Below, piece after piece: positions 4,220-62,490 of a stretch of 64,000 nucleotides of DNA. The translations under genes were made by a program, and so were the position numbers. The notes beneath the pieces are model-generated. The model was not told where the DNA came from. It ran no database searches and worked only from the letters and a program-made list of their open reading frames with translations. The stretch spans positions 123,224 through 187,223 of the forward strand of contig ML996694.1 in NCBI GenBank assembly GCA_010356995.1. The letters are read 5' to 3'. Within the stretch, counting starts at the first letter, position 1. Each line of letters begins with the position of its first letter. The stretch is from Trichodelitschia bisporula (taxonomy: Eukaryota > Ascomycota > Dothideomycetes > Phaeotrichales > Phaeotrichaceae).

Positions 4220-4551
4220 AGGTGGGTTTGTTTGCTGGAGGTAAGGGGGGATATACCGTGCAGAGAATTCGTCTTCAAGTCTATCGAAATTCGTAGAACA
4301 TACCATTAGTGCTGCCTAACCGCGACTCCTTTCGCCTACGTACGCCGTGGAGATATCCGTCGAATCGTCGAATCGACTCCGATAGTATGTAACCGTGCAC
4401 TACGTCACAATCCGCGAAGACTTTCGACGATAGATAATCCCCAGATCGTACCCATATTAGCGCCTCAGACGCGAACCCCCGGAACCCAGTTGCATGCTTG
4501 ACCCATCCCCCGAAAACACAGTCCAGCGCCCCTTACCTTGTCAAGGTCCAG
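4220..4551. other. Short convergent intergenic region
   Basis: About 330 bp separate the converging 3' ends of the orphan and the PARP gene. I see no gene or notable repeat. Confidence 0.7.
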
Positions 4552-6933
4552 CTAGTTACCCCACGAGTACTCCATCTTCACCCGGAACAAGTATCGCAGC
4601 CGAATCTGCTCCACATCATAAACGATATACTCGTTGTACTGCAGGTACCCGTCGGTCAGGCTCGCCGGCGGGTCAGAGACATCCGGCTTTTGCATGCGTT
4701 AGCCCACGATCCGCTCGTATTGGCCCAAAAGAACGGCTTACCATCGTCGTCCCCTCAAGCGTAGGATGCACACATCCCGCATCCTTCCACTTGGCAGGCC
4801 CCGCCTGCCCGCGCCCCAGCGTGGTGAGGCACCCCGCCTTCTGCGCCTTCTCACCAGCATCGTAATCCGCATTTGTGAGTTCGAAGAGCGGTTTGCCGAG
4901 CTCAGCCTCACACAGCCTAGACAAATCAGTCGCGTCCACAGCATAAACTAGCATCGGGACTTACAAAAGCAATCCCACACCCCCCGATTGCTGGTGGAAG
5001 CAGTAATTCGCGCTCTTGCTGCTCATGTCCGCCATGTACACGCCCTTGCCGTACATGTACCCAGACACCGGGGCCTCGGGCGGGGCGATGCGGAGCCCCT
5101 GACTCAAAATACCACCGAAGTTTGTGGTGCGGCTGCCGTGCCAGAGGAGACGACGGTCGGCTGCCAGGGATCCGTAGGGCGACTTGTCGAAGCGCGCGAA
5201 TTCGCCGTTGCGTTCGATGCGGAAGATTTCTTCGACTTCGTATCTCAGGGCGTGGGTGCTGGCGCGCGTGTGCACCAGGTAGTCCTGCAGCTCCTTGAAC
5301 TCCTGCGAGGTGGGGTCGAGGGGGGTCATTTCTGAGAGGCCCAGGCCTTCGAATTGCCTGTCGAGCGGGTTGACGACTGGGCCGGCCTGTTTGGATTTGG
5401 CCTCCTTCATGATCTCCTCTGCTACTTTCATGTCGCTGAGGGACTCGAGGAGGGCGATTTCGCGCTTGAGGATGTCCGCATCGGCGATGATTCGAGGGCG
5501 GCTGCGACCGAAGTCGTGGGGGATGGTGCTGTAGTACGCGTTTGTGAGATCGTTCTTCTGCCCATTGACCTCCATCACAGTAAGAGCTGGATCCGGAGTG
5601 AGAATTAGAGCCGCGAGTTCCTGTCACGGTCAGTGCTATCCGTTATAGCGATGTCGAAAGTACCTTCAAACACAGGTAACCACGCTCAAGCGTCCGCTTG
5701 CTCAACTTCCCCAGAGGCAGCTTCCGCGCATCGTAGTTCAGGTCCTGCATGACCGAGTTCATGTAGAATGGGTTGAAGATCAACTCCATGAGTTGCTGCA
5801 CCGGCTTCGCCAGCTTGCTCTCCGGCGTGCGAGCGGCATCGAGTTCCAGTTCCGTCTTGGGATCCTCAGTTGAGGGCTCCACATCGCTGTTGTCGGGCTC
5901 ATAGTTACGTTCAACGAACGTGTACTTGTTCGGACGGGGCGAGTTGAAGCGGTCAGCGAACTTCAGGCCACTCTTGTCCTTGAACTTTTTGTCAAACAGC
6001 TTCATAGCAGCGTCAATGCTACCCGTTTTGAGCATGGCACTCTGGCCGCTCTCACCGACGCGACCCCAGCGCGTCCACACGTCATACGACTTGCTGACCT
6101 TCGACTCAAGAAGCTACGTGGGTTAGCCTGGGCTGACACAGGGCGGTTAACATACCTGGATGCGGTAGAACTTGTTGTTGTTTCCAGACACGTTGGTCTG
6201 ATTCAGTGACGCATCCCACACGGTGCCATCATCGCCGACGTAGACAGTGTAGGTGCCTGGTCCATTAGCCACGTCCCAGAGCCAGAAGTGAGCACGTACC
6301 CCAATTGCTGCAGTGATCGTCAACTGGTGCGGTCCAGACTTTCTTCTGCGCATCGTCAATTCGGTTCTTTTGTATCAGTAGAGAAAATATGTTTACGGGT
6401 ATGGATGCTTGGGAGTCCTTCTTGTCAGTCTTAGTATCCTTCACAGGCTTGCCGTCGACAGCGGCAACCGGCTCATCAGCCTTCTTCTTCCCCTTCCCCT
6501 TCCCTTTGGCCTTCGTCACTGGCTCATCGTCGTCAGCCGGAGCCGGTTCATCAGCCTTCTTTTTCCCTTTGCCCTTCGCCGCGGGCTTTTCGTCATCGGG
6601 CACAGCATCAGCGGCCTTCTTCGTAGCACGAGCCCGCTTCTTCAGCTCGGGCTTAACCTCCTCATCAACCTCGTCCACATCCATCGCCTGAACAGCAGCC
6701 AAGACATCAGGCTGATCACCAGTAAGATCAAGCGTCTCAACCTCAGCGCCCTTCAGCGCACTACGCCCCCTTCTCGGCGGAGCAGGAGCAGGGACAGGTT
6801 GTTCGTTCTGTGCATCATCCTTCGCGGTGGCAGTAGCCTTCTTGCCCCTCGCACGCTTAGGCGGGGGAGGGGCGTCGTTGTCGCTGCCTGTGGTGGGTGG
6901 GACGGCCGCAGCTGTGCGTTTCTTGGGGGGCAT
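4552..6933 (-). CDS. Poly(ADP-ribose) polymerase, PARP2-like (WGR + regulatory + catalytic domains)
   Basis: This enzyme transfers ADP-ribose from NAD+ onto proteins, normally in the nucleus in response to DNA breaks. Six exons (6933-6300, 6256-6156, 6113-5664, 5620-4965, 4916-4742, 4686-4552) give 716 residues with phase-consistent 42-55 nt introns. Residues 1-190 are a disordered lysine/alanine-rich tail with a repeated KGKGKKKADEP motif. A WGR domain follows (VYVGDDGTVWDASLNQTN; WTRWGRVGE), then the helical regulatory domain, then the ART catalytic domain. The H-Y-E triad is complete: HGSRTTNFGGIL, SGYMYGKGVYMAD and the glutamate of LQYNEYIVYD. No N-terminal BRCT domain or zinc finger is visible. 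The start chosen is MPPKKRTAAA at 6933, because the open frame upstream looks like leader. Confidence 0.93.
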
Positions 6934-22775: not shown

Positions 22776-22935
22776 NNNNNNNNNNNNNNNNNNNNNNNNN
22801 NNNNNNNNNNNNNNNNNNNNNNNNNNNNNNNNNNNNNNNNNNNNNNNNNNNNNNNNNNNNNNNNNNNNNNNNNNNNNNNNNNNNNNNNNNNNNNNNNNNN
22901 NNNNNNNNNNNNNNNNNNNNNNNNNNNNNNNNNNN
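22776..22935. other. Assembly gap (160 N)
   Basis: One run of 160 undetermined bases. It lies in the upstream region of the PP4 regulatory subunit gene, so promoter or leader sequence may be missing. Confidence 1.
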
Positions 22936-52482: not shown

Positions 52483-53532
52483 ATGGCGTACCTCCACGAC
52501 TACCCCCCGATGATGTTAGACTCTATCCTCCGCGGCACGGGCTCGGGGACGACGCGCGGAAGGGGGAGGGTAAGGGTGAATGAGAGGGTTAGGCGGTATG
52601 GCTTTTTAAGGAGTGAGTGGTTTGGGGGCGTGATCAGGCGGTTTGGATGGGGGAGGGACGTGGAAGTGGAAGTCGTGGAAGTCGTCGACGATACGGGAGA
52701 TGCTCGAAGTATGGGAAGCGGGGAAGGTGCGGGAGATATCCCAGCTCTCGACGGACCAGCGGACATCCCTCCTCCCCCACCTAACACGCCTGCGCGGGTG
52801 ACAGACGACGATTACGAGACGGTGCCGCTCGCCCCGCCCCCGACACTACGGCTTATGCCTGCGAGGCTTGCGGTTGCGGTTGGGGAATCGCCGGTCCGCG
52901 CCGCAGAGCGCTCGCCGGCGACGCCGAGGCTGCAGGCTGCGAGACTTGCGGCTGCGGTTGTGGAATCACCGATTCGGAATTCGGAGCGTTCGCCGGGTAC
53001 ACTTGCGAGTTATTTGGCGCAGTGGCGCGAACCGAGCTACACCGACGACGAAGGGTTTGCGGAGGAGCATGAGGAGGGGCGGGGGGAGGAGGGGGATGAG
53101 GAGGTACTTGAGGGGGTAGGTGAAATGAGGCCGTATGAGAGTATGGGCAGGGGTGAGAGGATGATGGGTAGGGGTGAACGACGGTACTGGCGGCAGCGCG
53201 CGCGTGGCGGGCGGTGGTTCGCGAGTCCCCTGGGGGGGATTCGGGAAGAGGCTGGTGAGGGGGGACCGGAGAGGCTTATTAGCGAGGAGGAGGATGGAGG
53301 GGTGTTGGGGTGGTATGAGAGGGGGTATTTGGCACAGCGTGTGGGAGGGGGGAGGACGTTTGCGGGTGTGCTTGGGGGGATTAGTGAAAAAGATGAGGAG
53401 AGGGAGGAAGAGGAGGAGGGGCCGGAGCCGGTGGAGGTGGTGCAGGGGGTGAGGAGGGAGATGAGGTCGGGACGGTATGTGAGTTGGTTGGAGCGGGTTG
53501 CTGAAGATGGGGGGGGGGGGTTAGGGTGCTAA
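52483..53532 (+). CDS. Repeat-containing orphan protein
   Basis: I do not recognise this gene. From the first ATG the frame encodes 349 residues; it is open for another 160 nt upstream, so an upstream exon is possible. The N-terminal 60 residues look folded (AYLHDYPPMMLDSILRG, VRRYGFLRSEWFGGVIRRFG). The middle contains a 26-residue duplication (ARLAVAVGESPVRAAERSP and ARLAAAVVESPIRNSERSP). The last third has a second, longer repeat, GRGERRYWRQRARGGRWFAS with SPLGGIREE, echoed by ERGYLAQRVGGGRTFAGVLG with GGISEKDEE, separated by acidic Glu/Gly-rich linkers. The 3' part of the gene is very G-rich. Composition and internal repeats suggest a fast-evolving disordered protein. Confidence 0.5.
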   Translation: MAYLHDYPPMMLDSILRGTGSGTTRGRGRVRVNERVRRYGFLRSEWFGGVIRRFGWGRDVEVEVVEVVDDTGDARSMGSGEGAGDIPALDGPADIPPPPPNTPARVTDDDYETVPLAPPPTLRLMPARLAVAVGESPVRAAERSPATPRLQAARLAAAVVESPIRNSERSPGTLASYLAQWREPSYTDDEGFAEEHEEGRGEEGDEEVLEGVGEMRPYESMGRGERMMGRGERRYWRQRARGGRWFASPLGGIREEAGEGGPERLISEEEDGGVLGWYERGYLAQRVGGGRTFAGVLGGISEKDEEREEEEEGPEPVEVVQGVRREMRSGRYVSWLERVAEDGGGGLGC

Positions 53533-54159
53533 GGGATGGGGGGGGGGGATGCTGTCTTCACGGCTATCTACGGTACTGCATCATCTGGTGTTTAGGTACG
53601 ACCTTAGAATGCGGTACTTGCTCTGCTGAAGATCGTGTGTTCATGTGGTGATTGTGGTGCCTGGTGTGGTGCCGGGATCGGATTGAGGGTTAGGGGATCG
53701 GATGCGACGATCCGTTGGCAACATCAGTATCACAGGGTCAAATCGAATCCCCGCTGTCGTTCCGGCAAACGATGTAAAGGTATATATTCAGCAAAGCTGT
53801 TCAAATCAACGACTGACTATCCTAGTAGCGTGCGGTATGTATGAACTGCCTAGCAAATAGTACACAGTGCCTCAGGAGTAGACTGGCCTCCATTGGCTCC
53901 AATGGCAATGACCGACATGGCGTCGCGGCTGCTATGAAGTGCCAGTAGCTGCCTGGAGACGACGTGAGAGGAGTATGGTAGGAAGGCCTTCGAGGTCGGC
54001 GGCGAGGTTGAGGATGGGACGGAAGGTGCATTCGGGCACGATGCTCGGATTTCGCGTGCCTTCCATGGCCGACCAGCCGCGCCTTCCCTCCTCAACCACT
54101 CGCGCCTTCCATTGTCGGCAATGGCAGCAAACACCACCCCTCGCACTTGCCAATTCACA
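53533..54159. other. Spacer before the tandem orphan-gene array
   Basis: About 630 bp without a recognised gene. Runs of G at 53540-53550 end the preceding gene region. From about 54060 the sequence begins to resemble the leader of the array genes. Confidence 0.5.
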
Positions 54160-54604
54160 TGTTGAGTCGTCGACCTTCTCCTCCTCTTTCTTTTTTTCTT
54201 CTTCTTCTTTCTCACAACATCCACATTTCTCACCAGCATCACTCAATCGCCATCAACAAACACTTCCCCACTCACCAAGTCATGGTAGAGGTATATATCT
54301 TCGGGGCTATGTACTGTTTCTACTATATCCTCTTCCTCGTGTTTACAACAACCACTTCCCAATCACCATTTTCACTACCGCATTCCGTCTTCAGAATTCC
54401 ATTAGTAGCAGAGTTAACATGTCTCTGTTACGCCCCACCACATTCACGAGGCCTTTCCTTATGGCTCTTTCTGCTCACGTCCGTGGTTATACCTCCGCCA
54501 CTGTCCCTAGCTCTGCTTCTGCTACTGCCTCCTCCCCCGCACTCGCCATCGCATATATACAAGACGACCATTTTGACATGGCCGAGCTCCTGCGGAATAC
54601 ATAG
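54160..54604 (+). pseudogene. 5' fragment of the tandem orphan-gene family
   Basis: A CT-rich leader (TCCTCCTCTTTCTTTTTTTC) leads to AGAGTTAACATGTCTCTG, the conserved start context of the family, and a 61-codon frame (54419-54604) beginning MSLLRPTTFTRPFLMALSAH. Its DNA resembles the start of the next copy (TCTCTGCTGCGTCCCATGCC) but the frame soon loses similarity and ends before a GTAAGTAC donor-like site. I interpret it as a leftover 5' end. Confidence 0.45.
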
Positions 54605-54780
54605 AGGTAAGTACTTTACAAGGCGAATCGGGAACTGTACAGACGGTTTAGGCCTATCACGCCTGCTATAAACAGCGTCATTATATGCCGCTAGTGATGC
54701 TATATACACATCTCCGTACGCCAACACTTCCACTGCCCCAGGCCCTATGCAAAGTTGAAGCAGTAGTAGAGTTAACATAT
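54605..54780 (+). repeat. Linker module, copy 1
   Basis: This segment reappears about 1.82 kb downstream (56427-56600). Shared landmarks are GGTAAGTACT / GGTAAATGCT, GGAACTGTACAGACGGTTTA, the exact 19-mer TATATACACATCTCCGTAC (54701-54719; 56522-56540) and AGAGTTARC before the next start codon. It lies just upstream of each decayed copy, so it may be the family promoter. Confidence 0.75.
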
Positions 54781-54794
54781 CTCTGCTGCGTCCC

Positions 54795-56290
54795 ATGCCC
54801 TTCACAATGCCGTTTATCCTGGCTGCATCGATTCCTGGCCCTGCTTCTCGCTCCACCGCTTCCTCTGCGCCAGAGCAGTAAGTACCTCGTGTAACGCGAC
54901 GTAAACGTAGGCTAATCCGGTTGATTTCACAGGCAGAAACCTTTGTTCGGTGCGAGTGTCATGCGCGCCGCGTTAGGCCTTGCAAAAAAGAAGCGCAGCC
55001 GGAAGCCGAAAGGGGCCAAGGACGACGTTAAGGTTGCGAAGTTCCAGTTTGATGAGAGAATTGCTCAAGAGCTTGAGGCCGCGCCTAGGCGGTAACAAGA
55101 AATATATGGGCCGCTGCATAAAGATCGTTGTGACTGGCACTGCCCCGGTTGTCACGGTCACTGCAAGTGTGCACAAAGCTCTGGATGCAGATGGATGATT
55201 GTAAATATCAGATGCAGAGGAAAGAGAGGAAGAGGATGGCTAAGCCAAACACAACCATGGTGTGGGGGTGTGGGGCTAAGCGAGGCGCTAGCCCGCACTA
55301 GCCACACAGCCACAGCCACAGTGGTGGTGCAAGCGACCCTGACGATCAGTCATGGCCTCAGGCATCCTACCGACCATGAGCCATGACACCGGTGGCTACG
55401 TCTGACAACCAGAAGGGGCATTCGCTCCAGCTGGTTCAACAGACGGCGGGAGAGACTGCTCTGCAGTGGGCCCCGTAAGCGCCGGTGCCGCTTCCGCCAG
55501 CGGAGACACTGGTGCTTGTCGCTTCGCAGAATGAGGCTGATCCGAAAACTAAGTTGACATCGGATACCGTCCCGCTGGGTACGGACGCCATGGCCATCAA
55601 GACCACTTCAAAGCCGGCCAACGAAGGCATTGTTGTGCGTGCGGACAACCCGGTTCTCGGGATAGAGCCACAGGCCCTACAACAGCCTAAGCCCGCTCCT
55701 GACACAAACAGCCCTTCTGCCTTCGACTTCGGCAAGGCAGCCAAGCCTCGGAACCTCCCGCGCTTTGGCCGCAAGATGCTTACACTGACTTGGCGCGTTC
55801 CGCCCGCCCTCCGCTCCGCGACCCGGAAGCTCGACGTTCCTGGGCTCCTTGTGATATTTGAGGGACCCGGTTGCCATATGGAGTGGGGTGATGCGTACGT
55901 GCCTGCCGATATGCACAAGTCTTGTATCGCGTGCAACGCCCCTAAAGAGCAAAACGAGCCACTTCCTCCGTCACCCCCTGAGTCTACGGCGCCTAGTTTG
56001 GAGAGCAAGGCCAGCTTAGAGGAGATTAGTGCTCTAGCTTCTTCTATTATATACAGCGCCGAGCAAGAGCAGGAGGACGAAATGTCGCCGCAGCTTGAGC
56101 CCGTCCCGGTTAAGGAGGCCGATAATCAGCTCCCGCCGGCTCTAGCCCGCCACGTGCTGCGTCCATCCTCACGCCTCGCCCGCGCCGGTCCCTAAATAGG
56201 TCTAAATGTGCCGCAGCCCCCTTCACGCTTTGAGTTTGGGATGCCCGGCTCCGGGTTCGACTTCAAGATTGAGCACCAAGCCGTCTAGCC
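54795..56290 (+). pseudogene. Tandem relative A of the orphan gene (5' small ORF plus decayed 3' body)
   Basis: The copy opens with an intact small coding unit of 81 residues: exons 54795-54877 and 54933-55095 with a good GTAAGT/CACAG intron, giving GLAKKKRSRKPKGAKDD and FQFDERIAQELEAAPRR. The rest corresponds to the 581-residue gene at 58301 but is no longer one frame. It includes RCIKIVVTGTAPVV, a stop after TALQWAP, then 237 open codons from 55485. That body contains AKPRNLPRFGRKMLTLTWRV, RKLDVPGLLVIFEGPGCHME and ADMHKSCIACNAP, and ends at LRPSSRLARAGP; short matches continue to 56290 and beyond. The body is too well preserved in frame to be very old. It may be a pseudogene or two new small genes. 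Confidence 0.65.
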
Positions 56291-56426
56291 TCACCCGATC
56301 CCTGGCTTCGCCGAGTTCAAGGAGTATGAGGAGATCGAAGACGAAGACACTGAGGAAGGAGATTCCAAAGAAGAGGAGGAGGAGCAGTTCAAGGAGGATG
56401 AAGAGTCAAGGGGGGCACGATATAGA

Positions 56427-56600
56427 GGTAAATGCTCTAAGACGCGAAGCGGAAACTGTACTGACGATTTAGTCCTATTACGTCTGTTATACAGCGCCAC
56501 TAAATATACCGCCAACGATACTATATACACATCTCCGTACCACAACAACTCTACTGCGAGAACTCGCATTCTAAGCTCAAGTCGCGGCAGAGTTAGCTGT
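56427..56600 (+). repeat. Linker module, copy 2
   Basis: Second copy of the module at 54605-54780, with the identical 19-mer TATATACACATCTCCGTAC and an offset of about 1.82 kb. On both strands the translated segment is similar between copies (for example GNCTD, IYTSPY in the plus sense), as expected for a recent DNA duplication. Confidence 0.75.
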
Positions 56601-56626
56601 CTTCGCTGCACCCAACCACCTTCACC

Positions 56627-57470
56627 ATGCCTCTCTTCGTAGGTGTTCCAGCTCCGGCCCCCATCTCTGTCTCCACCGTTGTGCCTCTCCCGGTGCCAGA
56701 GAGATAAGTACCCTGCGTAATGCGACGTAAACGTAGGCTAATCCACCTTGTTTTCACAGTCGGAACCGTTCCTTCAGCGCGTTTGTTGTGCAACTGACCA
56801 AGATCACAAAGAAAGTGCGAGGCTGGCACTTGAACAAGATTGAAGGCAAAAGCGAGGCGGCCAAGGTGGTCTCAGATGCTGAAATCGAGCGAGAGCTCGA
56901 AAGCGTGTCGAGCGGCGACTTTGCGGCGATGTGGCGCAAGATCTCTAATGACCAGGTAGCAAAAACCTGCACCGATGCCGCTATCATCAGCAAGGTCGAA
57001 AAAGCACTGAGCACGGACAACACATAATCGCGTCGCAGTCGCTATGTCGTTATGACTTGCACGGCGTTGGCTCCAGAGGCACCTCCGGTTGAGCTGGAGA
57101 AGGCTCAGCTGGACCTGGCGCCGAGGAAGTTCGAGCTGAGGACGATCCAGATTCACATACACAACTGAGATAGCTGCGTTTCTACTAGGCCCAAACGATC
57201 AACTCTTTCATCTTCCACTGGCTGGTGCACTCAGATAACTACTGTTGAGCAAGCTGCGAAGGAGCCTCCATCGGATGCCGTGTTCTGTCCCACTGTAAAG
57301 TCAGGGACTCTAGAGAATCACGATTTGCCCCCGACTCCCATGTCTGGGAACGGGGATGTGATTGATGAAACCAGAAAAAGCCCCTGAACGATCTGAGTGA
57401 GGGAAAGGTGGCAGTGGAGGGGAGGATGAGGGAACATGAAAATGGAGAGGATGGGGTGTAGCTATCTATT
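56627..57470 (+). pseudogene. Tandem relative B of the orphan gene, truncated
   Basis: The copy begins MPLFVGVPAPAPISVSTVVP. In relative A the intron donor is GTAAGT; here the same position reads ATAAGT (after CCAGAGAG), which leaves an in-frame stop unless an unusual AT-AG splice is used. The acceptor (TTTTCACAG) is intact and the second exon (56760-57027) is open: SAFVVQLTKITKKVRGWHLN, then SDAEIERELESVSSG, ending KALSTDNT. A later piece (MTCTALAPEAPPVELEKAQL) resembles the next part of the family. The large conserved core is missing. I regard it as a truncated, probably dead copy. Confidence 0.6.
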
Positions 57471-58300
57471 CATCGCTGATGCAGCGCATTAACGTACATG
57501 CTCCACTGATGATTGGATTCTTACTCCCGAGGTGATTTTGTTGGCAACTTCGCCGTCATAAGGCCAAACCAACTGTCACAGGCGTTCCAAAAAAGGTGAT
57601 CGAGGTAGCGTAGACAGCCAAGGAAGTCCCTCAAATCGGCCGCCATCGTGGCCTCATTTGTATGGGCTTGCTACAGTCATTCAGCCCCCGGGGCATAGGC
57701 CCCTCTAGTCTCTCTAGATTTCACCTTGCGACTCGCTGAGGGTGGAGAGGTTGGTGCTGAATTGCGAACCCGGCTCATGTTGAGAGGTGAGGAGAGGGAG
57801 ATGCTAGGGTGGTAACGGGGGTCAGGGGGTCAGTGCAAGGCTGAGGATCGAACTGGGCCTGTCTTTGGATGCCAGGCCGGGATCAGACAGGAAATGCCTT
57901 CAGATTCGCATTCAAGACTGAGGGTCAAACGGGGACGGCCTTCAGACACAATCCTCAGTCCGGCCAAGCCTTCGATTCTGCGCGGTCTTCCATCCTCGGC
58001 CGTGGTTGTTGACCTGGAGACAAACACAAAGGCTTGGCAGTCGCCAAACGGTGCGCTCGGGTCCTCGACCTCCTTCCCCTCTGGGAAAGTCTTCGATTCC
58101 ACGAGTCTTCCATTATCGATCGCCAGCATTCACCATTGAAGCAAACACAACGTCTTGGCACTCGACAGCAGTACTTAAGTCCTCCACGTTCTTCTGCCCT
58201 TCTCCTCTTCTTCTTCGTCCACACAACAATACATTCCTCATCTTCCAGTCAGCATCTACCACCCCACCACATATCACAATTAAGACGCACCGAAGTTAAC
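57471..58300 (+). promoter_or_regulatory. Leader/promoter region of the intact orphan gene, with a 121-bp duplication
   Basis: Two copies of a block beginning CTTCGATTC (57970 and 58091, period 121) share CGRTCTTCCAT, RCAAACACAA, CTTGGCA and TCCTCNACNTTCTTC. An older related segment lies at 57894-57960. CT-rich DNA (CTTCTCCTCTTCTTCTTCG) and the context GAAGTTAACATGCC precede the start codon, as in the related copies. Confidence 0.6.
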
Positions 58301-60046
58301 ATGCCTTCGGGGTGCAATACCGCCACCTCGCCAGCCATGGAGTCCTCGACTTTCCTTTCCGGTCTTGCGAAGAAAATGCGTGGGTTCAAGCGGGGGACAA
58401 AGAAGGACAAGAAGAAATCCGATTCCACCATCATGAGGGAGCTGGAGATTTCCCTGAGCGGCAATAGGGTCCTGCGCCGGTCAATCAAAATCGTTCTGGT
58501 GCATGCGACAACGGCTGCTGCGCCTCTCGGCGGGAAGGGACACTCGCTTCAGCATGCGGAGGGAGAGACTGCCGTGCAGTGGACCCCGAAGCTGCCGGAG
58601 CCCCTTGCGCCCACCGAAACCTCCGTGCTTGTCATCTGGCAGCCGGAGGTGCAGCCAGAGCACCAGCAATCGGAGCGGCAGGAGCACCAGCTGCCAGAGC
58701 AACAGCAAGACAAGCAGCCAGACCAGCAGCCATTGAAGCAGCCCGAGCAACAGCCAGGCGAGCACTCAGCGCAGCATCCATTGAAGGAGACCGAGCAGCA
58801 TGCGAAGGGACCCACGGAGACCTCAAAACCCGAGGCGCTTGAGGGCGGTGGTACTCCAGAACTTCCGGTGGAGCCAGTGCAGCTTCCGACGCCGGAGTCC
58901 GTGGAGACCATCGTCCAAGGTGGAGCGTCCGAGCATAAGGAAACCGATTGTGACGATGTGGTTGCTAAACAGGTCAATGAAGAGGCCGGCACCAAACCCG
59001 CCGACCCAATTTCGAAATTCCCGCCTAATGTCTTCTCTGGCCCAGCGCCAGTTCGACTTGATGATGCCGCTTTCACCGTCGACTTCGGCGGCGAGGAAGC
59101 CAAGCCTTGGGTTCTCCCGCGCTTCGGTCGTAACATTCTTACGCCGACTTCACGCCTGCCGCCCGCTCGCCGCCCCCCGACCCGGAAGCTCGATGTTCCA
59201 GGCTTGCTTGCAATGTTTGAGGGCCCCGGTTGCTACATGGAGTGGGGTGGAGCGCACGCCCCGGCCGATATGCCCAAGGCATGTGTCGAGTGCACCACCC
59301 CTAAGACCGAGCAAAATGTGCCACTTCCACCGTCATCAGCTGATCTTGGGGCTCCGACATCCGATGCCAAAGAAAATTCAGAAGAAACCAGCGCCTCGAT
59401 TTCATTTATCGGCGACCGCGCCGCCCCGGAGGCAGTTAGCCATGAGACCACCACTCTGCTACCCTCGGCTCCAGCTCGCCGCATTCTCAACCCATCTTCG
59501 CGTCTTGCCCGCGCCGGCCCGCAGTTGGATCTCAAAGTACCGCTTCCACCTTCGCAATTTGAGTTTGGGGTGTCCGGTTCCGTATTCGATTTTACAGTTA
59601 AGCAACAAGCCTTCCAGCTGCCCCCGATTCCCAGCTTTGCAAATCCCGCCAACGAGAACTTGATGGACCTGTCGCACTGCAATAATGAGGCTGAGGGAAA
59701 TACCGAGAGATTTAAGCTCACGGAGTATGAGGATATCGAGGAGAAAGACACCGGGGATGAGGACGAGGAGGAGGACGAGGAGGACGAGGTCAAGCCGGAC
59801 ACTACAACTCGTGTCTACAGCACTGTGGGCGGTCCGTTCTTCGCGGCTATCGAGGAGCGGTGCCCTGAGATCCGTATGGGTGACTCCGGTGCCTACAAGG
59901 CCGTGGAGGAACCGGTTACGACGGCGCAGGGTGACAACGAGGCGGCTGAAGAAGCTAAGAAGAAGAAGAAGAAGCGCGGTGGTAAGGGACGCAAGAAAAA
60001 CGGCAAGGGGCTGAAGGGCGGGAAGGGCGGAAAGGGGAAAAAGTAG
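58301..60046 (+). CDS. Intact member of a tandem orphan-gene family (581 aa)
   Basis: I do not recognise this protein. It is one uninterrupted exon. Residues 15-50 are basic (SGLAKKMRGFKRGTKKDKKK). About residues 113-170 are Gln/Glu/Pro-rich with short EQQ-type repeats (QEHQLPEQQQDKQPDQQPLK). A conserved core shared with relative A lies near 248-330: AKPWVLPRFGRNILTPTSRL, RKLDVPGLLAMFEGPGCYME, ADMPKACVECTTP with a CxxC pair. A second shared block is RILNPSSRLARAGPQLDLKV. An acidic run (DEDEEEDEEDE) and VYSTVGGPFFAAIEERCPEI follow, and the tail is lysine/glycine-rich (KKKKKKRGGKGRKKNGKG). There is no signal peptide or membrane segment. The basic ends and acidic middle suggest a nucleic-acid or chromatin-associated protein, but this is inference. 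Confidence 0.7.
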   Translation: MPSGCNTATSPAMESSTFLSGLAKKMRGFKRGTKKDKKKSDSTIMRELEISLSGNRVLRRSIKIVLVHATTAAAPLGGKGHSLQHAEGETAVQWTPKLPEPLAPTETSVLVIWQPEVQPEHQQSERQEHQLPEQQQDKQPDQQPLKQPEQQPGEHSAQHPLKETEQHAKGPTETSKPEALEGGGTPELPVEPVQLPTPESVETIVQGGASEHKETDCDDVVAKQVNEEAGTKPADPISKFPPNVFSGPAPVRLDDAAFTVDFGGEEAKPWVLPRFGRNILTPTSRLPPARRPPTRKLDVPGLLAMFEGPGCYMEWGGAHAPADMPKACVECTTPKTEQNVPLPPSSADLGAPTSDAKENSEETSASISFIGDRAAPEAVSHETTTLLPSAPARRILNPSSRLARAGPQLDLKVPLPPSQFEFGVSGSVFDFTVKQQAFQLPPIPSFANPANENLMDLSHCNNEAEGNTERFKLTEYEDIEEKDTGDEDEEEDEEDEVKPDTTTRVYSTVGGPFFAAIEERCPEIRMGDSGAYKAVEEPVTTAQGDNEAAEEAKKKKKKRGGKGRKKNGKGLKGGKGGKGKK

Positions 60047-61416
60047 CTTGTCCAAAGGCCGAGCTGTCCTCTCTATGGGGAGCGAAGAATATGAGGGAAG
60101 GGTGTGATGGTCTGGTCTGCTAGTTCTAATGTTCGTCAATGTCTTTTAATCCTGCGTCCCAGATGCGGGAAAGAAGTAGCAATTCAATTCATGATCTGAA
60201 GGAGTACGTGCGGGTTCTTTCTTCGTGCTTTGACCCATATAGCCAGTTCTTGATGCTTGAAGTCGCGGATGGGGAGTTGATGCGATATATGCGTCGTCTG
60301 TGGACCGAGCGCCGTCTGGCTGAAGTTGAGACGTTCGCATAATGCGCCACACCTACGCCACATGCCACGCCGCAGCGGCCAGTTGCCGGGTAACCACATC
60401 ACCTTAACCACTGGATCTCAACGTCGTTGCATTTTTCACTTCGTCACTTTCTGTGCCATTACCCATCCTTCACATCATTCAAATGCATGAATTATTTGCT
60501 TACACCTACTAGCATAGTTACAGCCAGCATGTCAACGAAGCCCTTCGATCCGCACGTCCTCTCCATTACCAGCGTTAATCAATGGACTCTAGTTCTAGTT
60601 CTAGGCGCACTCCCGTTTTACGGTTTCATAGAATAGTTACTCTCTTTGTCCAATGTCAAAAACATTTGATTATCCCAGCTGATTCCTTGCTAACTCAAAG
60701 GAAAGCTGACTTACGCACTTCACCTCCAAAATGCGTTGGCAGTCGTCCTGACAACACCTGGTAGAAGCAACATGAACATCGTGACAATCAACGTTGAGAA
60801 TCAGCACCCTGGGGCAAACAATAAAGTTCTAACAGCGACCCCAAGTTCAGATAAAATCAAAGTTGCGACGGAATCAAACTCACAAAGTTACATCCATCAA
60901 AAAAGGGCCAAAGAGCAAAAATAATATCTTTTCGGAGTATGAAATCCCACAATCTTCAGCGGCCAGCTCAAGAAAGTGAGTTTTACTACCGAGGGTCGAA
61001 CTCGAGGGGCTGACCAGTGGGTGATATGGAATGATCTAGACAGACGAAGTTAACTGTTATACTCTGTCCCACTCGACCACACTGCCCCGAATCCGGTGCC
61101 CTAGACAAACCATTTTTGTGCGGCGGGGAATATAAGGGGACGGTCGGTAGGCCAAGACTGTACAGCAGGCTTACGCGTGCAGCCAACAGCTCCCTAGAAC
61201 GCTCTTGTCCATCTAACCAGGCTGCCCAGGCTTCTAAAGTGCAAACTTTCATATTTGGAACCAAGGAAGAGCTAAAAGGCACCCATAAACTGGTAGGGAA
61301 CAACATATCATCCGTTATTACTGTTCGTACCTGTGAAGTGTTTGTCAGTCTTAGAACTCTCAACATCTCCAAAAGCATGAATTGATAAGGACTACAACCC
61401 TCCGCAAAGCAAGTTC
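60047..61416. other. Intergenic region with a tRNA-like SINE remnant
   Basis: About 1.4 kb, more AT-rich than the surroundings. The only recognisable structure is the tRNA-like segment at 60898-61086. A 67-codon plus frame at 60139-60342 has no supporting feature. Confidence 0.5.
60898..61086 (-). mobile_element. tRNA-derived SINE remnant (Pol III promoter boxes A and B)
   Basis: On the minus strand TGGTCGAGTGG (61069-61079) fits box A, and GAGTTCGACCC (60993-61003) fits box B inside a perfect five-pair T-arm (TCGAG, TTCGACC, CTCGG). A GACAGA...TCTGTC stem lies where an anticodon arm would be, but the acceptor and D stems do not pair and the boxes are 67 nt apart. It is therefore not a working tRNA. 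A T6 run about 90 nt further on (60899-60904) could terminate Pol III. The arrangement fits a SINE or tRNA pseudogene. Confidence 0.4.
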
Positions 61417-62490
61417 TCAGGCAACCGTCTCCCCATTCGCCGGCACCGCCGCCGTCGGCGCCGGCGGCGGCTTCTCCGGCTTCACATACCCAAACCTATT
61501 CTCCGTAATCGCAAGCTTCAGCTCCGTCCCCGCATCCAGCCCCTCCGAGTCATCCTGCAAATCAAAGCTCTTCCCATTCGCTGCAACCGCAACCGCACGC
61601 CCATGCACCCCCTCATCAGCACACAGCCTCATCGCAACATCCACACAATCGCTGACCTCCGCCAAACTCAAACCCGCCTTCTCCATATACTCCCAGTATC
61701 CTTTCGTCATATTCGTCTTGACGAAAGTTGGGGCGAGGAGATTGACTCTGAGATCCGGATGTCCCTCGCCTAGGATCCGGCGTGCACCGCGGAGGGCACG
61801 GAATATACCTCGCACACCCCACTTGCTGCCGCAGTAGTCGAGCACGCCCGTCATGCTGGTGAATCCGCCCATCGACGCGACGAGCAGGATGGTCTTTGCA
61901 TCGCTGCTCGGGCCCGGGTTGTGCCGGAAGTGGTGCAGCGCGAGGTAGACGGTGTTGTACACGGCCATCATGTTGATGTCGAGGACGCGGGTGGAGGGCG
62001 GCTCGGGGTCGCCGTTGGCGTCGAGCGGGGGATTCTGGATCCAGGATCGCTGGCCGGAATTGCCGACGCCGGCGCTTGGGATTAGGATGTCGAGGGTGTG
62101 GTTGGGGGAGAAGGCGAGGCTGGCTTTGAAGGCGGCGATGAGGGAGGGCCAGGAGGTTACGTCGGTTTTGATGAATTGCGCGCTGGAGAGGTTAGCTGGG
62201 TGGGTAGAGTTATGGGAGGAGGAGGTACTGTAGCCCCTGGTCGGTGAGTTGCCCGGCTGTATCGTTGCCGTCGGTTTCGTTGATGTCGGCGATTGTCACG
62301 TAGGCGCTGGGACGTCAGTTGAGTTCATCGGATTGGCTTGGGAGAATTACCCCGCTTCAGCGAGCGCGATGGCGCAGCCTTGCCCGATGCCCGTGGCGCC
62401 GCCGGTGATGAGCACGGTTTTGCCCTTTAGGCTGGCTGTGTCGAGGGACGACGACAGGTCGATCTTGGGGCTCCACTTGTCGGTCTCCAT
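61417..62490 (-). CDS. Short-chain dehydrogenase/reductase (classical SDR)
   Basis: A NAD(P)-dependent oxidoreductase of unknown substrate; the layout resembles the 15-hydroxyprostaglandin-dehydrogenase-like branch common in fungi. Three exons (62490-62351, 62306-62229, 62182-61417; introns 44 and 46 nt) give 327 residues. The cofactor site is GKTVLITGGATGIGQGCAIA, with TIADINETDG binding the adenosine. The usual NNAG motif is replaced by LIPSAGVGNSG. The catalytic serine lies in ILLVASMGGFTSMTG, and the YxxxK motif is YCGSKWGVRGIF. The C-terminal 50 residues extend past the SDR core and end in a proline/alanine-rich tail. Acidic D in ADIN suggests NAD preference. An isolated gene with no pathway neighbours. 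Confidence 0.92.

Follow-up and report, generated by a model that had tools for sequence, protein, structure and literature searches.

A probable birth-and-death array of an unnamed gene family, with one open copy and mostly decayed relatives, in Trichodelitschia bisporula

Tandem gene families that evolve by birth and death typically consist of head-to-tail copies, one of them intact and the others truncated or interrupted by stop codons. The array analyzed here, which spans about 6 kb within a 64,000-nucleotide stretch of the Trichodelitschia bisporula genome (hereinafter the window, C8:123224-187223 in an assembly of 25.65 Mb and 30 contigs), shares this organization, and no departure from it was found besides the fact that the family is unnamed. 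The islands of Aspergillus fumigatus ("gene dumps" or "gene factories") are described as species-specific gene clusters rich in pseudogenes and repeats, are explained by duplication, diversification and differential loss, and comprise isolate-specific blocks of 10-400 kb, with the genes located mostly near telomeres (PMC2289846); compared with that description, the present array is small and is located at about 180 kb in a contig of 1.26 Mb. The locus is, with high probability, an ordinary birth-and-death array in which a gene of an unnamed family was duplicated in tandem, only the last copy retains the full reading frame, and the other copies are mostly dead.

All units of the array have the same orientation (the forward strand): unit 0, a 5' fragment, is followed by A, the larger relative, by B, an N-terminal remnant, and by the intact gene at 58301-60046. 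Self-comparison aligns the core of A (55720-56311) with positions 59076-59640 of the intact gene at 68%, the start of A (54601-54964) with that of B (56422-56791) at 70%, and a portion of unit 0 (54364-54502) with A (54722-54860) at 65%. Together with the open reading frame (ORF) and codon score analysis, this comparison confirms the observation of a first-pass annotation, made from the sequence alone, that an intact 581-codon gene is preceded by relatives in the same orientation. The 581-codon frame is embedded in a 677-codon stop-free frame, whereas first-order simulation of the 8.5-kb region, repeated 200 times, produced no stop-free run longer than 354 codons, and its codon score (trained on six author-chosen stretches of the window) is +0.216, against -0.274 to +0.026 for the other five frames. 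The frame is real and coding-like.

Unit 0 (54419-54604) starts with an ATG at 54419 and reaches an in-frame TAG at 54602-54604; neither the core nor the tail of the gene was found in this unit, and it is not coding-like (codon score -0.04 in the ATG frame). Part of its upstream region (54101-54418) resembles the upstream region of the intact gene (67% between 54121-54232 and 58135-58240), and its first codons (MSLLRPTTFTRPFLMALSAHVRGYTSA, inside an ORF; 54419-54550) are reminiscent of a mitochondrial presequence. The starts of A and B are copies of each other, including about 180 bp upstream: the segment preceding A (54601-54794), with an intron-like stretch at 54607-54651 and a TATATA at 54701, is duplicated before B (56422-56626), with 40 of 50 positions identical over 54601-54650 and 90 of 129 over 54651-54777. 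The TATATA sequences at 54701 and 56522 are copies of one site and may function as TATA boxes. B itself (56627-57027) includes a 26-codon exon 1 that runs into a TAA at 56705 and an open exon 2 (56760-57024, codon score +0.251), with AT in place of GT at the donor position; the core and the tail were not found downstream of it. In a small sample, the A intron (54879-54932) and its B counterpart (56705-56759) are identical at 47 of 55 positions despite the AT donor of B, and the flanking exon stretches are less alike (69/113 and 38/87, gap columns counted). The start context attributed, exactly or nearly, by the first-pass annotation to every unit applies in full to two of the four: unit 0 and the intact gene carry the ATG in the AGAGTTAAC context, the corresponding position in A (54777-54779) reads ATA, and that in B reads AGAGTTAGCTG.

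The array would have arisen through at least two events of tandem duplication of an ancestral gene, with unit 0 and B retaining only 5' parts and 58301-60046 alone staying fully open. A would have retained much of the coding sequence, subsequently accumulating stop codons and a probable frameshift, and would also have received a 239-bp element, similar to a solo long terminal repeat (LTR), that separates its core from its N-terminal part. This is the order of events that we infer for the array. Unequal crossing-over, the origin initially proposed, is possible, although indistinguishable here from other modes of tandem duplication; duplication followed by decay agrees with the data, whereas the proposed conversion of the copies into small new genes is not supported, in view of the insertion, the ATA, the probable frameshift, the three stops and the ratio of nonsynonymous to synonymous substitution rates (dN/dS).

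The lesions of A are distributed over both of its halves. The 5' half (54795-55095) contains a two-exon 81-codon frame (exons 54795-54877 and 54933-55092, intron 54878-54932) that ends at the TAA at 55093-55095. In a frame other than that of the 81-codon unit, the stretch 55085-55149 encodes a peptide (LGGNKKYMGRCIKIVVTGTAP) that resembles residues ~52-76 of the intact protein in the DNA alignment and, in translation, by eye; a BLASTP search with the 21-mer from this side of the insertion returned nothing up to E 100. The 3' half (55395-56420) continues in the frame of the intact gene, with stops at 55476 (TAA), 56193 (TAA) and 56286 (TAG), is best conserved at ~55703-55990, and retains neither the Q/P-rich stretch nor the Lys/Gly tail; the alignment of the peptide immediately after the insertion (ATSDNQKGHSLQLVQQTAGETALQWAP) to the intact protein begins at residue 79. 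Altogether, the coding remains of A match residues ~79-504 of the intact protein, with gaps, plus the N-terminal part. The core is conserved as originally noted, but the homology is not confined to one frame of ~237-238 codons: it extends beyond the end of that frame across the two further in-frame stops, and the codon scores are 0.177 for the core and 0.328 for the post-stop stretch.

The two halves are separated by a 239-bp repeat (55150-55388, TGTCACGG...CCATGACA) that was overlooked in the first-pass annotation. The repeat ends in TG...CA and is bracketed by the target-site duplication CCGGT on the left (55145-55149) and on the right (55389-55393). Given that the peptide before the repeat resembles residues ~52-76 and that the one after it aligns from residue 79 onward, the insertion very probably occurred inside one former reading frame. 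The "spliced 81-residue unit" and the "237-codon frame" into which A had been divided, the former a two-exon frame that does exist on paper, are thus most likely the two parts of a single broken gene. The insertion presumably postdates the duplication, as near-complete repeat copies are 95-98% alike, compared with 68% between A and the intact gene.

Elsewhere in the genome, the repeat is present in at least eight places (lower bounds, with nested matches counted once), including five near-complete copies (95-98%), one copy at 85% and two truncated copies (95-96%). The alignments of the near-complete copies start and stop within 1-2 bases of the same points, except for one beside a run of N (one copy adjoins a 1,230-base run). 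Six further copies for which both ends were found show a 5-bp duplication in three cases, a 7-bp duplication in one and none in two; these copies were chosen by their ends and so provide no independent count of TG...CA. With the window copy included, a 5-bp target-site duplication is present in four of the seven copies. Ends of the TG...CA type combined with 5-bp duplications are the usual LTR pattern, and the insertion fits a solo LTR in both respects; unlike the case of known solo LTRs, no parent element was found, and none of the nine reverse transcriptase (RVT_1) matches detected genome-wide, seven of them over the cut-off, was linked to the repeat. A miniature inverted-repeat transposable element is the less probable identity, although not a far-fetched one: the element is bounded by imperfect inverted repeats (TGTCACGGTCA / TGTCATGGCTCA), and the 7-bp duplication in one copy and the lack of any in two are compatible with such an element, against which stand the LTR-type ends with 5-bp duplications in four of the seven copies. 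Copies of the repeat at C22:252763-253245 (regions L028, L030, L036) and C11:997933-998196 (L032, L035) carry an inverted copy at the same internal position.

Comparison of A with the intact gene over 319 codons yields a dN/dS of 0.38 (95% interval 0.27-0.51). Before and after the stop at 56193 alike, the ratio stays below 1, namely 0.49 in the core (0.29-0.85; 96 codons) and 0.20 after the stop (0.08-0.43; 72 codons; 848 of 1000 resamplings finite). Given that dN/dS is no higher past the stop than in the core, the constraint seems to be older than the stop. Several observations weigh against the interpretation of A as a dying copy. The pairwise dN/dS pools both lineages, so that the low post-stop value is owed in part to the intact copy. 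The synonymous rate, dS, is 0.49 in the core (55703-55990) but 0.98-2.0 in other stretches, a difference that simple decay leaves unexplained; gene conversion is one possible option. The frameshift that probably terminates the 81-codon frame at the TAA at 55093 is judged by eye. Finally, the 81-codon frame and a 201-codon frame of A that starts with ATG are open, and A or B could be transcribed.

The product of the intact gene (581 amino acids) consists of a basic N-terminal stretch, a Q/P-rich part, a core at residues ~248-345, and an acidic stretch followed by a Lys/Gly tail. The initial impression that the family cannot be named is borne out by the searches with this protein, which identified no Pfam family up to E 10, no NCBIfam family up to E 1, and no significant match in the PDB (best E 1.6). 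No Pfam-A or NCBIfam family scored above its curated cut-off with either the intact protein or pieces of A and B; the sub-cut-off matches, SPESP1 with the A core (E 0.016) and UBL_USP40 (E 0.015), IMP2_N (E 0.13) and DotB (NCBIfam, E 0.098) with exon 2 of B, are taken as chance. A search of prokaryotic and viral contigs, sensitive to close relatives only, did not confirm any relative of the array gene, and the genome search detected, as the only relative outside the array, a C-terminal fragment on contig C2 (a 126-base match). The suggestion of a CxxC core fared worse. The intact protein contains seven cysteines, of which A shares three positions (C311, C328, C331), and in this comparison of only two sequences, a four-ligand CxxC-type zinc site found no support, there being no fourth Cys or His common to both; at two sites near the shared cysteines, His and Tyr differ between the same two sequences. 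AlphaFold2 modelling of the intact protein from a three-row alignment gives a mean predicted local distance difference test (pLDDT) score of 41.9, without secondary structure, and 69% of the residues are disorder-promoting; the product looks largely disordered. It is conceivable, as a tentative guess from composition (the acidic stretch and the Lys/Gly tail), that this charged, mostly unstructured protein binds nucleic acid or another polyelectrolyte; both the expression and the role of the intact copy are presumed.

The decayed part of the array is rich in TATATA: five runs occur in 54150-56600, whereas the density in the remaining window would predict 0.32 (Poisson P 2e-5, a post hoc value). 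Much denser accumulations exist elsewhere in the genome, namely C9:75500-83500 (L051; 22 runs in 5.7 kb), C11:713500-720500 (L053; 17 in 5.0 kb), C11:931800-941799 (L047; 14 in 3.4 kb), C2:291400-301399 (L011; 8 in 2.7 kb) and C1:322700-332699 (L039; 9 in 2.7 kb). L047 and L039 come from ten regions chosen as sources of the C2 matches; L051, L053 and L052, the latter with six runs in 8.5 kb, were taken from a set of TATATA pairs lying close together. Relative to the remaining 61 kb of the window, in which 8 runs occur, the islands are about 20-30 times denser, a figure that is no test given that they were noticed or picked for TATATA. When four of the islands were searched against the genome, each had short matches at other loci (for the C9 island 21, spread over 12 contigs; for L053 11, for L047 6 and for the C2 island 11), compared with none for a single ordinary 5.7-kb control stretch; the C1 island, compared only with a limited set of loci, has blocks in common with a few. 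The fragments are 38-296 bp long and 77-95% identical, some of the matches overlap each other, and their origin could lie in the capture of pieces or in large, shuffled families of which they are exons. Of 61 TATATA runs, only 4 fall inside matched blocks, compared with 16.7 if placement were uniform (none of 5000 placements gave so low a count), an avoidance to which the coding-like nature of the blocks may contribute. In the aligned blocks of the C9, C1 and C2 islands, TATA/ATAT words are island-only in 14 cases and source-only in 2 (14 is reached in 6 of 2000 permutations), and one block from C8 starts, as judged by eye, where an intron-like stretch of its source ends. TATATA as the exact seam of the fragments was not borne out (14 of 61 runs no more than 15 nt from a block end, 10.7 expected, P 0.17; P 0.018 in a single island). 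Genome-wide, there are 54 close TATATA pairs, compared with 52 in a backward control, which counts against a special role of this word.

The possibility that the decayed half of the array is a mild case of such islands, in which fragments of many loci would be strung together by TATATA-rich linker through a process other than repeat-induced point mutation (RIP), appears rather improbable. The C2 island does contain a fragment of the array gene (196 bp, 69%). A mosaic origin of the window array was not borne out, the genome search with 53540-58300 having returned nothing besides the 239-bp repeat and the intact gene, and neither was a gain of TATA words by A relative to the intact gene (two gained, one lost). 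Membership of the array in the island class is accordingly doubtful. In the literature, as judged by titles and the openings of abstracts, nothing was found on TATATA-dense islands of gene fragments. Two further features were observed: aligned to its reverse complement, the stretch 6395-7274 of L047 is 96% identical across 883 columns, forming a large palindrome, and L038 (contig C21) carries at 4261-5499 a 412-codon open frame, coiled-coil-like, parts of which match the C1 and C2 islands and which has only sub-cut-off Pfam matches (DUF745, E 0.00029, 21.1 bits compared with 33.3).

Remodelling of A into two small working genes is unlikely. Both frames of A are open and coding-like by codon score (+0.257 for the N exon, 54934-55092), and the intron of the 81-codon unit has a plausible GT...CTAAT...CAG structure; however, the repeat insertion lies between the two frames, the core frame has no ATG before 55590, which is 111 bases into it, and the homology and the low dN/dS continue past the stops. 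Had the core been kept as a new, shorter gene, the constraint should fall past the stop, and no fall was observed.

It is very unlikely that the whole array is a single long gene with internal repeats. Intron-like starts (GTAAGT / GTAAAT ... TTTAG, within the 50 aligned positions mentioned above) directly follow the preceding unit before both A and B, but unit 0 and A contain in-frame stops (54602 in the former), a separate AGAGTTAAC-like context is found in each unit, the donor position of B reads AT, and an upstream region is common to unit 0 and the intact gene. Equally remote is decay caused by RIP: TA/AT is raised in 54150-56600 (0.98 compared with 0.54-0.72 in ten background stretches), but (CA+TG)/(AC+GT) is not lowered (1.18 compared with 1.17-1.27), the top enriched words of the pooled islands are (TA)n words, and pairs of islands and sources (the comparison of A with the intact gene is not part of these counts) show 143 C>T+G>A changes and 123 T>C+A>G changes.

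Around the array, the window contains short introns of the GT...CTAAT...AG type and genes including those for NIF phosphatase, PP4R3 and DHFR, all in keeping with a fungal genome. The best PDB matches of the DHFR are entries attributed to Pneumocystis and Candida, and a search for 5.8S rRNA gave no hit. Rfam gave no matches over 53500-61500, and ARAGORN (bacterial code) gave none over the whole window, which includes a run of 160 N at 22776-22935.

The array is ordinary in kind, and the TATATA islands are an odd by-product of its analysis. The array adds an unnamed gene family to the genome and provides a worked case of a "new small gene" miscall, in which the apparent split of a gene is most likely due to the insertion of a mobile element and to stop codons. 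If the pattern of fragment-rich TATATA islands holds in more islands and species, it would point to an undescribed mechanism by which dead genes are broken up and stitched together again.

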